This document shows, piece by piece, positions 56,201 through 61,391 of a stretch of 64,000 nt of DNA. Position 1 is the stretch's first letter. The number at the start of each line of letters is the position of its first letter. A model generated the notes under the pieces. The model did not search any database. It was given only the letters and a program-made list of their open reading frames with translations, and was not told the DNA's origin. The stretch lies in the NCBI GenBank assembly GCA_019454045.1, contig SKCR01037673.1, positions 1 through 64,000 on the forward strand, written 5' to 3'. The position numbers and the translations under genes were made by a program. The stretch comes from Zanthoxylum bungeanum (taxonomy: Eukaryota; Streptophyta; Magnoliopsida; Sapindales; Rutaceae).

Positions 56201-57305
56201 GTTCAGAAACAATAGCCATCTGCAATTGTAGAAAATTGTTAAGCAACAAGCATGGTAGTTCAGTAAACAAAAGACATTTTATATAGACGAAAAAAGTGCA
56301 AACTAGGATGAAGATATAGAAAACGATTTAAAACTAGTAGAACAGGATCATCAATACATATAATTGTCAAAACCTCTATGAAAATTGTATTAAGAGATGA
56401 TATATAAAAAAAATAAAAATAAAATGAAATTTGGATGATAGGCCTCACATGCCCCAAGCTCTGAGTGCAAATAAGGTTAGGATAGAATTTCTCTAGTTGT
56501 TCCACACGATTCTTTTCCATCTGCAAAGACGGAACACAAGCAGAAAACACATCTTCATTCATGCTGGAAACAAAATAAATCTTTTATAAATTCGTAATTG
56601 TACAACTAATAAAACTAAAGAATCTACAAGCATCTATAGTACCATGGAAATTGCTGATTCAAGAACCCCATATTTTACTTTCAAATCACAAGTTACCATC
56701 TCAATCTTCAACTTCCCTGTTGAAAATATAAAACATATAATTAAAGTAAAAGTTCAACAACCAACTTAAAATTGCATTAGAAGACAACAATTTAGAAGCA
56801 GCCAACCTTGCGAAAGTTGCTCTTTACTACGCTGGAGCTTTTCCCTCAAAATCGTTAGCTTATCATTCTGAAGCACTCTCCAATTCAGCTGATCATCAGC
56901 CTTGCCCTAACAATATTGATTTCGAAATTAAACTAAATCTAATAACAAAAACAAAACAAAAACAAAAACAAAAAAGAAGAAGAAGAAGAAGCAAACCTTA
57001 GCCACAAGAACTTCACTCAGTCTCAAATACAATGCATCTCGACGACTCTTCAGTGACTTCAACAAAGTATCACACTCCCTTAATCTAAATGTCACCAGAT
57101 AAATACGGCATTATCATACGCATTAAACGCAACGTTTTCCACCGGAAAACAAGCGCAAATATATATATATATATTATATTGAAAAATAAAATAGGCTTGA
57201 AGGTTAGAGATACCTGTAATTGGCACAGCCTGCACAAATAGAAGCGCGATTTGAATTATCGCAAATAGCGCAGTTACTGGCTTTCTTGTTCATCCTCAAA
57301 TTCAT
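47269..57305 (-). CDS. ATG14: ATG14, autophagy PI3-kinase complex subunit
   Basis: ATG14 is the subunit that directs the class III PI3-kinase complex (VPS34, VPS15, ATG6) to autophagosome formation. Twelve GT-AG exons join in frame: 57305-57214, 57084-56997, 56906-56807, 56716-56643, 56520-56449, 56219-56142, 55388-55264, 54985-54913, 54127-54066, 53990-53613, 47806-47719, 47469-47269. The product is 476 aa, near the length I recall for plant ATG14. The N terminus has a paired-cysteine motif (C12, C15, C24, C27; CAIC..CAGC). A coiled-coil stretch covers about residues 31-145, followed by FYPNLICTQSLGH, the LLHKQSVVIKQICKLFP block, QKGISLLKKSVAC and the C-terminal EDVEHWTR. The start at 57305 is followed by an in-frame ATG four codons later (57293). 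Intron 10 (53612-47807) holds a 5.5-kb retrotransposon on the opposite strand; the splice sites are intact. Exon 1 has a second copy upstream at 58714-58805. Confidence 0.93.
48064..48439 (+). repeat. 5' LTR of the Reina-like element
   Basis: It is nearly identical to 53174-53548. It has lost one C and gained ATG relative to the 3' copy within the stretch that encodes the pol C terminus there. Confidence 0.95.
48470..53255 (+). pseudogene. gag-pol of the Reina-like chromovirus, one frameshift
   Basis: A single polyprotein of about 1,590 codons broken at one place. The first frame (48470-51277) has a coiled N terminus and a gag domain (residues about 107-262, LPVFTGEDPYGW). It continues with the zinc knuckle CFRCEEKFFPGHRC (about 363-376), protease LIDSGATHNF (about 444) and RT (FCVDYRALN about 690, FFDDILIY about 790). 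The frame shifts by one base near 51195-51220. The second frame (to 53255) carries RNase H (ETDASGVGVGAVL), the integrase HHCC domain (HSTPQGGHSG to CDVCQRSK), the DDE core (DISMDF, SDRDSIF, QTDGQTEVVN) and a C-terminal chromodomain (VLVKWLHLPDYENTWEP). The last 27 codons lie in the 3' LTR. All catalytic residues I can check are present. Confidence 0.92.
53174..53548 (+). repeat. 3' LTR of the Reina-like element
   Basis: It starts TGTTGCACC and ends CCTAACA. Its first 82 bases are also the end of the pol frame. Confidence 0.95.
55480..55880. mobile_element. MITE-like insertion in ATG14 intron 6
   Basis: GC-richer ends in inverted orientation (left GTCGTCAAAGGCGTGCCTCAAG, right the reverse of GTTGTTAAAGCGTAAGGCGC) resemble plant MITEs with AAGGCG-type ends. 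A target duplication was not identified. It is in an intron and does not touch splice sites. Confidence 0.5.
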
Positions 57306-58240
57306 TGTTAACAAATTAATCAATTTATTTATTTATAATTCCAATTGCTGCAGATTGGAACCACAAACTAGAGAATTTAATTCTTTGGAAAACATAAATT
57401 ACTGAGATTCTGAAGGAGCAGGGCCGGAAATTAAAATCAACGGTGCAAGATCACCGGAGATTCATGATCGTAAGGAACCGTGCAATCGTGTAAGCTTTTT
57501 GTTCATGGCTTAGGCACAACTTTCAATTTTGCACCAGGAAGAAAAATAATAAGTTAAACATTCTCCCTTAAATTTTTGGGGAAATTAATGAATTTGTGAA
57601 ATTTATAGGGGTCTCCCCGGGATGATAACAAGTTTAGGGGCAGTAACTTGTCATTCACAATTCAGTGAATTAAACGACATGTCATGTAAGCATTGACATT
57701 TTAAGTGGTATGCCGGTTGGATTTTACTACCTTTAACCGACCTGTCGTTTATTCTCAAAACTTTAGCATGTTTCCGCCCTTTATGATATAAATTTTTCTT
57801 TTAAATCAAGTCAAATTTATACATTTTCGTTTAATTCTATTGGTATAAAATTATCAAAGAGACAAGGAATTAAAAAATAAAAAATAAAACACACACTCCA
57901 CACACGTGCGTTTGAAAAAAATATTTTTTTTTAACTTTTACTTTAAAACTTATAAATCTCCCAAAATATAAAGTATTTCATAAAAAATTATATATTATTA
58001 ATTTACAAATCATAAATTTCAAATAATACTCATTTTAGATATGTTTCTAAAAAAGATTATAGATAAGTAGAGAAAATACTTTTTATAATATTTGAATAGA
58101 AAGTTATAAGAGAAGACTTGTATAACCTTTAGATTACACTAAGTAATGAAAAGTAAATATTATATATAATTACATAATTAATCTCATAATTCTAGCAATC
58201 AATACTAATTAGTAATAATTAGTATATTTCTAATTCTAAC
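57306..58240 (-). promoter_or_regulatory. ATG14 proximal 5' flank (copy 1)
   Basis: It contains the likely 5' UTR (57306-57540) and promoter. The sequence is repeated without meaningful change at 58806-59740. No clear TATA box could be assigned. The distal part is LTR sequence of a minus-strand copia. Confidence 0.45.
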
Positions 58241-58291
58241 ACTCCCCTCAAGTTGGAGCATACATATTATATGTATGATGCTTGCTACAAT

Positions 58292-58676
58292 TAAGAGTGG
58301 CAAAAAAGTCCGGGTCCAGTTTGGTCCGTTCGGGATAAAAAAACTCGGGTCTGGGCTTTAAAATTAGAGGTCCGATTAGGGCCCGGGCCTGAGCCGGGCT
58401 CGACCCATGCTTAAAATAAATAAATTATATATATATATTTTTATATTAAAAAATGGTCAGGTTTTTCCCGGGCCCAGGCCTAAAAATTACTTCTCGGGCT
58501 CGGGCCGGGCTTTGATAAGCCCGATCTAAGGGTGGCAGAAAAGACCGGGTCAGGTCCGGCCCGGCTCGGGCCGGGCCCCATAATAAAAGAGCCCGAGCCG
58601 GGCTTTCCATTTTTGGCCCGGGCCAAAACCCAAGAAAAAAAAACATATATATATATATATATATATAATATATATA
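58292..58676. mobile_element. Truncated copy of the nested MITEs in duplication unit 1
   Basis: It matches 59792-60176. It includes the start of the outer MITE (58292) and of the middle MITE (58527), and is cut at the AT-tract junction of the tandem duplication. The GC-rich CGGGCCGGGC-type sequence here is MITE subterminal DNA, not coding. Confidence 0.85.
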
Positions 58677-59439: not shown

Positions 59440-59741
59440 ACTTTAAAACTTATAAATCTCCCAAAATATAAAGTATTTCATAAAAAATTATATATTATTA
59501 ATTTACAAATCATAAATTTCAAATAATACTCATTTTAGATATGTTTCTAAAAAAGATTATAGATAAGTAGAGAAAATACTTTTTATAATATTTGAATAGA
59601 AAGTTATAAGAGAAGACTTGTATAACCTTTAGATTACACTAAGTAATGAAAAGTAAATATTATATATAATTACATAATTAATCTCATAATTCTAGCAATC
59701 AATACTAATTAGTAATAATTAGTATATTTCTAATTCTAACA
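59440..59741 (-). repeat. LTR of a minus-strand copia element (extent approximate)
   Basis: On the minus strand a purine tract TTGAGGGGAG is followed at 59741 by TGTTAGAATTAG, an LTR start. It is repeated at 58241 in duplication unit 1. The other end of the LTR could not be set, and no 5' LTR lies in the window. Confidence 0.6.
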
Positions 59742-60026
59742 CTCCCCTCAAGTTGGAGCATACATATTATATGTATGATGCTTGCTACAATTAAGAGTGG
59801 CAAAAAAGTCCGGGTCCAGTTTGGTCCGTTCGGGATAAAAAAACTCGGGTCTGGGCTTTAAAATTAGAGGTCCGATTAGGGCCCGGGCCTGAGCCGGGCT
59901 CGACCCATGCTTAAAATAAATAAATTATATATATATATTTTTATATTAAAAAATGGTCAGGTTTTTCCCGGGCCCAGGCCTAAAAATTACTTCTCGGGCT
60001 CGGGCCGGGCTTTGATAAGCCCGATC

Positions 60027-61391
60027 TAAGGGTGGCAGAAAAGACCGGGTCAGGTCCGGCCCGGCTCGGGCCGGGCCCCATAATAAAAGAGCCCGAGCCG
60101 GGCTTTCCATTTTTGGCCCGGGCCAAAACCCAAGAAAAAAAAACATATATATATATATATCTATATTATATATATATATATATATGTTTGTAGCATTTGT
60201 ATTTATTTATAGCATTTAAATTGTTAATTTATCAATGAAACTTGTGATTTATTTGTGAATTGTCTTTGCATATAGTGTGAATGTATTTTGTATTTGTATG
60301 TTTTTAATTTTTTTTAAAATTCGGGCCAGAAAAAATCCTGGGCCTGAGCCCGGCCCGTTGCCACTAGGGATGACAATTTTACCTGCAAACCCGCAAAAAC
60401 CCGCCCGTAATGGGTAGGATTTGGTAAATATATTAGTGGGTGCGGTGCGGGTTTGGTAATTTAAAGCAGAGCCCGCTGCGGGTGCGGTGCGGGTTTGGTA
60501 TTTAAGAAAAAAATGCGGGTATCCGTTGCTGGTATCCGCATACCCGCAATATTATTTTTTATTAATTAATATTTTTAGGACAATATAAAAAAACCTTCAT
60601 AAAAACAACTAACAAAACCTAAACCTAAAACATTAATCCACAATTCCACACTCCCACTCAGCCGCAGCCCGCAACCTGCCCAACTGAAAATTTTTTGCAT
60701 GACTATTATTGTTTTTTTAATCACACTTGTTAATAAAATTATAATACAAAAATTTGGATTAAGTTCACATGATCAGAAACGGGAGATGAGCAAAATAAGC
60801 TAGTGTTTGCTGTAACTTCAGTAGCTTTCCTGCTTCTTCATTACACTTACACCACTTGAGCCTTGTAAGTGTCACTTTTATTACACTTAGCATAAAACAT
60901 ATGACCAAAGGTTGGTGATTACTTTTTAGCTTATTTTCGATTGAGTTGGCTAACTTAGATAATTATAATTATGAAGGGAAGAACTCGTTTTAATTATGTT
61001 TATATGAAAAAATAAACATACGGTACTGAGTCTTTCATAATTTATGTTATCTATGTATTGTATATACATACATTGCATGTTATATATGTCAAATGAAAAA
61101 CAAATGTGAAAACTACAGCTAGCAATTAAAAATAAATTATTTAATTAAAAAAAATATATTATTAAGAACACAAAGTAATTCAATATTTTAAAAACCCGTA
61201 AAAAATCTGTTGGGTACCAATACGGGTTTGGTAATTTATTTTTATATGCGGTGCGTGTTTGGTAATGAAAATTAAAACCCGCAACGGGTATGATGCGGGT
61301 TTGGTAATTTATTTACATATGCGGGTGCAGGTCTGGTAATGGAAAACCCGCACCATACCCTACCCACTGCCATCCCTAGTTGCCACCCTTA
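60027..61391. mobile_element. Middle hAT-type MITE of the nest
   Basis: Ends TAAGGGTGGCAGAAAAGACC and, once the inner element is taken out, the reverse of TAAGGGTGGCAACGGGCC. Perfect 8-bp target duplication GCCCGATC (60019-60026, 61392-61399). It lies inside the outer MITE. Confidence 0.92.
60365..61378. mobile_element. Inner hAT-type MITE of the nest (1014 bp)
   Basis: Ends TAGGGATGACAATTTTACC and the reverse of CTAGGGATGGCAGTGGG. Perfect 8-bp target duplication GTTGCCAC (60357-60364, 61379-61386). It inserted in the right terminal repeat of the middle MITE. Subterminal regions are rich in CGGGTTTGGTAAT and its inverse. Confidence 0.93.

Follow-up and report, generated by a model that had tools for sequence, protein, structure and literature searches.

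A possible recent tandem duplication of the 5′ end of ATG14 in Zanthoxylum bungeanum, with AT tracts at both breakpoints

In a 64,000-nucleotide stretch of Zanthoxylum bungeanum DNA (assembly GCA_019454045.1, contig SKCR01037673.1, positions 1 to 64,000; hereafter the window), the start of a predicted gene for the core autophagy protein ATG14 is found twice, head to tail. Does this plant carry two starts for one gene, or does the assembly carry one piece of DNA twice? We lean slightly towards a real, recent tandem duplication of the ATG14 5′ end, formed by joining of, or template switching between, two AT tracts, with both copies able to start transcripts. The assignment of the gene, on the minus strand, to plant ATG14 is supported by the Pfam profile PF10186 (ATG14), which was matched by the 381-residue part encoded in the first 10 exons (E 4e-79; 266.7 bits against a cut-off of 33.2; profile positions 1-345 of 347). 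This agrees with the identity given in the initial annotation of this DNA. The sole other Pfam match of the protein, APG6 BARA, scored 20.3 bits, under its cut-off of 34.

Two head-to-tail copies of the start of ATG14

The initial annotation had described a head-to-tail repeat of 1.5 kb with two single-base indels, and our comparison gave the same result. Two units of 1,500 bp abut with a spacing of 1500-1501 bp (Table 1). Their limits lie inside AT tracts and are therefore uncertain by some bases; they are within 2 bases of the limits first proposed. Over 1,461 bases (57180-58640 compared with 58680-60140; 917 base runs in each), there were no substitutions. The units differed by one A in each of two short runs: AA at 57413-57414 in the proximal copy and AAA at 58913-58915 in the distal copy, then AAA at 57790-57792 in the proximal copy and AA at 59291-59292 in the distal copy. 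When the AT tracts at the ends, which differ further, were included, BLAST aligned the units over 1,524 columns at 99.6% identity and counted 2 mismatches and 4 gaps.

In a comparison of the window with itself, from which pairs shorter than 60 bp were left out, these units formed the longest repeat pair, and the most similar one among pairs longer than 100 bp. Tandem Repeats Finder did not return the pair because the longest period searched was 500. Each unit extends about 1.37 kb upstream of the ATG, and not about 0.9 kb as first estimated. Of this upstream DNA, about 986 bp is native sequence and about 383 bp is transposon sequence.

The coding part of exon 1 and its splice donor are intact in both copies. 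The predicted coding sequence runs from 57305 to 47269 in 12 coding exons with GT-AG borders. Joining exons 2-12 to either copy of exon 1 resulted in an identical 476-residue protein without an internal stop, as expected from the earlier proposal that either copy can encode the same N terminus. The border of exons 3 and 4 was moved by one base to fit GT-AG, which left the coding sequence unchanged.

With no substitutions in 1,461 bases, the upper 95% bound on the divergence of the units is about 0.2%. If real, the duplication would be recent and very young. Its age in years depends on the substitution rate for this plant.

AT tracts, nested elements and the origin of the repeat

Both breakpoints fall in (AT)n tracts, as had been noticed from the sequence earlier. 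Outside 57100-60300, tracts of (AT)7 or longer and the 5 bp on each side of them make up 0.09% of the window. A chance occurrence of such tracts at both breakpoints is therefore unlikely, in a comparison made after the breakpoints had been seen. The tract at the junction of the units resembles the distal tract at its beginning and the intron tract at its end, which makes it a hybrid of the two parental tracts. The distal tract is an (AT)n sequence with an interruption, and is predicted to form a hairpin with a 20-bp stem and a 9-nt loop. The predicted fold energies, each from a single folding with RNA parameters and without shuffles, were −18.2 kcal/mol for the distal tract, −7.9 for the junction tract and −2.0 for the intron tract.

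The distal breakpoint lies within a set of three nested elements that occupies 58284-61432 when the parts in unit 1 are counted. The three elements have similar short inverted termini and three different 8-bp target-site duplications (TSDs). We class them as hAT-like from these 8-bp duplications and ends, and their lengths suggest that they are non-autonomous. Each later element was inserted near the right-hand end of the preceding one. Elsewhere in the window, the word GCTACAAT was present at three other places, GTTGCCAC at one and GCCCGATC at none. A fragment with a hAT-like RNase-H fold transposase domain (PF14372, E 5.8e-10) is present at 39066-39701.

The left parts of the outer and middle elements recur in unit 1, from 58292 and 58527, respectively. 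Their left-hand flanks recur there too, at 58284 and 58519, offset by 1,500 bp as a duplication requires. Because the left ends of these two elements are part of what was duplicated, the sequence places both insertions before the duplication. The insertion of the inner element may be older or younger.

These features are consistent with the following sequence of events. The hAT-like elements would have been inserted about 1 kb upstream of ATG14, the second inside the first, and the third inside the second either before or after the duplication. The AT-rich palindrome belongs to the middle element and would have arrived with it. A break or a stalled fork at the palindrome would then have been joined, or have switched template, to the (AT)n tract of intron 1 on the sister chromatid or a homologous one. 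The interval between them, with the promoter region, 5′ untranslated region (UTR), exon 1, donor and start of intron 1, would have been copied once, head to tail. We infer this repair route and its effect on expression from the arrangement; both ends of the unit could be accounted for if two AT tracts were end-joined, or if the template was switched between them. The involvement of palindromic sequences in human gross rearrangements has been reviewed (PMC4940405).

The same recombination between a transposon-borne AT palindrome and an intronic AT tract might also recur, with units gained and lost so that populations have one, two or more ATG14 starts, each with promoter and first exon, as a copy-number switch of expression. 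We regard this extension as speculative and unlikely.

The hAT-like elements lie exactly where the unit ends distally, and alternative transposition of maize Ac is reported to yield tandem direct duplications (PMC3744419). Could alternative (reversed-ends) transposition of Ac/Ds type have produced the repeat here? The maize duplications resemble the ATG14 repeat in being tandem, direct and adjacent to hAT-type elements. They differ in that their junctions, as reported, carry an element end and an 8-bp TSD (PMC3744419), whereas the ATG14 junction joins AT tracts in an element and an intron. The junction tract is found 118-152 bp into the middle element; on its other side is the intron (AT)n, and no element end was seen there. 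We therefore set aside this mechanism, which seems highly improbable for a junction placed inside an element in (AT)n and not at an element end.

Several points weigh against a real duplication with two usable starts. An assembly error would give the same near-zero divergence and the same lack of substitutions. Contigs may plausibly end, or be falsely joined, in (AT)n tracts, and AT tracts at both breakpoints are equally expected of a false join. The junction tract holds more AT units than plain joining of the present parental tracts supplies, and because of this surplus the exact joining point is unreadable. Four acceptor-like sites, one of them strong in a rough score, could spoil distal transcripts (see below).

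The first two of these points fit an assembly artefact, in which two versions of a single 1.5-kb sequence, either haplotypes or products of read errors, were placed serially through contig ends joined in (AT)n. We consider this a real possibility, though not the probable one. Two haplotypes are expected to differ by substitutions too, whereas none were seen. All 20 of the base runs of at least 5 in the compared stretch agreed between the units, and each indel falls in a run of 2-3 bases, a pattern unlike that of typical long-homopolymer errors. It argues against homopolymer errors alone as the source of the differences, for which random read errors could still account. The units are not separated by a gap (the window has 0 N), but a wrongly filled gap would not show.

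False duplications with adjacent copies are documented in genome assemblies, mostly with a gap between the copies and sometimes with wrong gap filling (PMC9516828). They resemble the present case in that adjacent copies including exons can come from misassembly. They differ in that, according to the same source, most are split by a gap or a read-depth gap, whereas the ATG14 units have no gap between them.

Table 1. Positions of the duplicated units, breakpoint tracts, ATG14 exons and nested elements in the window
Feature	Position	Strand	Remarks
Unit 1 (proximal copy)	57175-58674	−	exon 1 with 39 bp of intron 1; upstream, about 986 bp of native DNA and about 383 bp of nested hAT-like sequence
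Unit 2 (distal copy)	58675-60174	−	same sequence as unit 1 apart from the terminal AT tracts and two A runs that differ by 1 base
Proximal breakpoint partner	57159-57174		(AT)8 in intron 1
Hybrid (AT)n at seam between units	58645-58679
Distal breakpoint partner	60141-60189		AT-rich palindrome within middle hAT-like element; (AT)n part 60145-60185
Exon 1 coding part, proximal copy	57214-57305	−	92 nt, donor GTATCT
Exon 1 coding part, distal copy	58714-58805	−	sequence identical to proximal copy, same donor
ATG14 exons 2-12	47269-57084	−	predicted by reading the minus strand, joined frame checked
ATG14 exons 2-6	56997-57084, 56807-56906, 56643-56716, 56449-56520, 56142-56219	−
ATG14 exons 7-12	55264-55388, 54913-54985, 54066-54127, 53613-53990, 47719-47806, 47269-47469	−
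Outer hAT-like element	59792-61424		1,633 bp with the two elements inside it; TSD GCTACAAT at 59784-59791 and 61425-61432
Middle hAT-like element	60027-61391		1,365 bp with the element inside it; TSD GCCCGATC at 60019-60026 and 61392-61399
Inner hAT-like element	60365-61378		1,014 bp; TSD GTTGCCAC at 60357-60364 and 61379-61386; outside the duplicated unit

Predicted transcripts and known parallels

If the duplication is real, both copies could start transcripts. Those from the proximal copy would keep the native first intron of 129 nt, while those from the distal copy would be spliced over 1,629 nt to the same exon 2. The longer intron contains the proximal start region. A distal transcript spliced straight to exon 2 is predicted to have the same coding sequence as a proximal one, and with the same protein made from both, the change in dosage would be small or none. 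Two equivalent promoters are plausible. The initial annotation had also offered a longer 5′ region of the distal transcript as a possibility. This does not follow from straight splicing, where the two transcripts would differ in intron 1; a longer or disturbed distal 5′ region would need one of the intervening acceptor-like sites.

Between the distal and proximal donors, four acceptor-like AG sites scored above 3: 58409 (4.2), 58046 (5.2), 57778 (3.0) and 57229 (7.7). The scores use approximate plant base frequencies and give only a rough ranking, in which 5 of the 11 ATG14 acceptors score below 2. The site at 57229 scored above 10 of these 11 acceptors. It is located inside exon 1, 16 nt before the donor. 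The statement that exon 1 lacks an acceptor therefore holds for its role as the first exon but not for its interior. This site is relevant only because exon 1 is duplicated. Its use would produce a 16-nt microexon and a frameshift, with the frame predicted to end nine residues after ANYR. Read-through of the distal donor would end the frame two residues after ANYR. Part of the distal output may be lost to such cryptic acceptors, to early polyadenylation or to promoter interference.

A gene with this layout has been described. In the flowering gene PEP1, the FLC orthologue of Arabis alpina, parts of the promoter, exon 1 and part of intron 1 are tandemly duplicated, the longest segment being about 2 kb (Albani et al. 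2012, PMC3527215; the layout is also covered in a review, PMC7927791). PEP1 has two start sites, both copies of exon 1 are spliced to one exon 2, and identical proteins are predicted in accession Paj (PMC3527215). If the assembly is right, the ATG14 locus has a layout of the same type: a direct repeat with upstream DNA, exon 1 and the donor, followed by a single exon 2. The two cases differ in several respects. The exon-1 copies of PEP1 are 6.3 kb apart, a 246-bp segment differs and separate starts were demonstrated (PMC3527215), whereas the copies in ATG14 abut, are nearly identical and have putative starts.

Duplications in the core promoter of TERT in tumours are another direct duplication of promoter sequence of a single gene (PMC9481613). 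They differ from ATG14 in lying within the core promoter region and acting through an ETS-motif mechanism; the abstract of that report is silent on exon 1. Among the open-access papers listed by our searches, judged by titles and the starts of abstracts, none was seen to describe a plant ATG14 whose promoter or first exon is duplicated.

The layout is thus already known from PEP1, and ATG14 appears to be a younger-looking example in another gene. What appears new is the position of the distal breakpoint: of three nested hAT-like elements it lies within the middle one, in an AT tract with a predicted 20-bp hairpin. If real, the locus would be a clean and very young case in which the AT palindrome of a small transposon helped to duplicate the start of a gene and left the protein untouched. 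If it is an artefact, it is a reminder that care is needed when alternative promoters are annotated on a single assembly.

In a real duplication, the two 1-base differences would tag the copies naturally. One of them is 108 nt upstream of the first ATG. As starts of PEP1 lie 61-190 bp upstream of its ATG (PMC3527215), this tag is possibly within the 5′ UTR, in which case ordinary RNA reads might separate the two starts.

The ATG14 protein, its rate of change and its neighbours

A search of a protein database found 473 ATG14 homologs at E up to 0.001. The closest among the best 120 of the 473 was from Citrus sinensis, with 87-88% identity. Seven homologs chosen from these 120 were aligned with the window ATG14. 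The second Met of the window protein (57293) is the start position in 5 of the 7, and in the other 2 the start is one residue earlier. Exon 1 encodes two C-x-x-C pairs, and their four cysteines are invariant in all 8 aligned sequences. N-terminal cysteine repeats are named as a feature of ATG14, and plant ATG14a/b are described as complex-I subunits of the class-III PI3-kinase (PMC6016017).

In relative-rate comparisons, the window ATG14 had 31-38 private differences and the Citrus protein 14-16 (chi-square 4.8 to 10.0). Six outgroups were used one at a time, with Citrus taken as the nearest relative of the window; the data behind these six tests overlap. Control comparisons of three other proteins (P0002-P0004) with Citrus, using three outgroups, gave nine results ranging from 14:19 to 24:17. 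Differences unique to one of the 8 aligned sequences numbered 20 in the window protein and 5 in Citrus, with 20 and 18 in the more distant Prunus and Herrania. By these counts, the window ATG14 changed faster than its Citrus relative, and its private changes were about double in number. A possible cause is that constraint is relaxed on this gene as one of several copies.

Could the second copy instead be a regulatory gain, with promoters that differ in use by tissue or stress and a duplication kept by selection? Upstream of the ATG, the copies are equal over about 1.37 kb and differ past this point, where only the distal copy keeps the DNA beyond the breakpoint. In Arabis alpina, PEP1a and PEP1b are differentially expressed (PMC3527215). 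The ATG14 duplication, however, is too young to show selection, and the faster change of the protein gives no suggestion of strong selection on it. We find such a gain very unlikely.

The exon model of the window ATG14 is without five residues before ITKN, at the end of exon 47719-47806, that are present, in frame, in all 7 relatives. One further residue, near alignment column 302, is present in all 7 and has no counterpart in the model. The intron between exons 10 and 11 contains a Ty3-like LTR (long terminal repeat) retrotransposon at 48064-53548, with LTRs 97% identical and a 5-bp TSD (CAGAA). Its polyprotein is divided between two frames that overlap, and the type of the element was judged by eye from the translations. 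On the opposite strand, a bZIP transcription-factor frame (44858-45814; 24.1 bits, under the Pfam cut-off of 27.6) adjoins ATG14.

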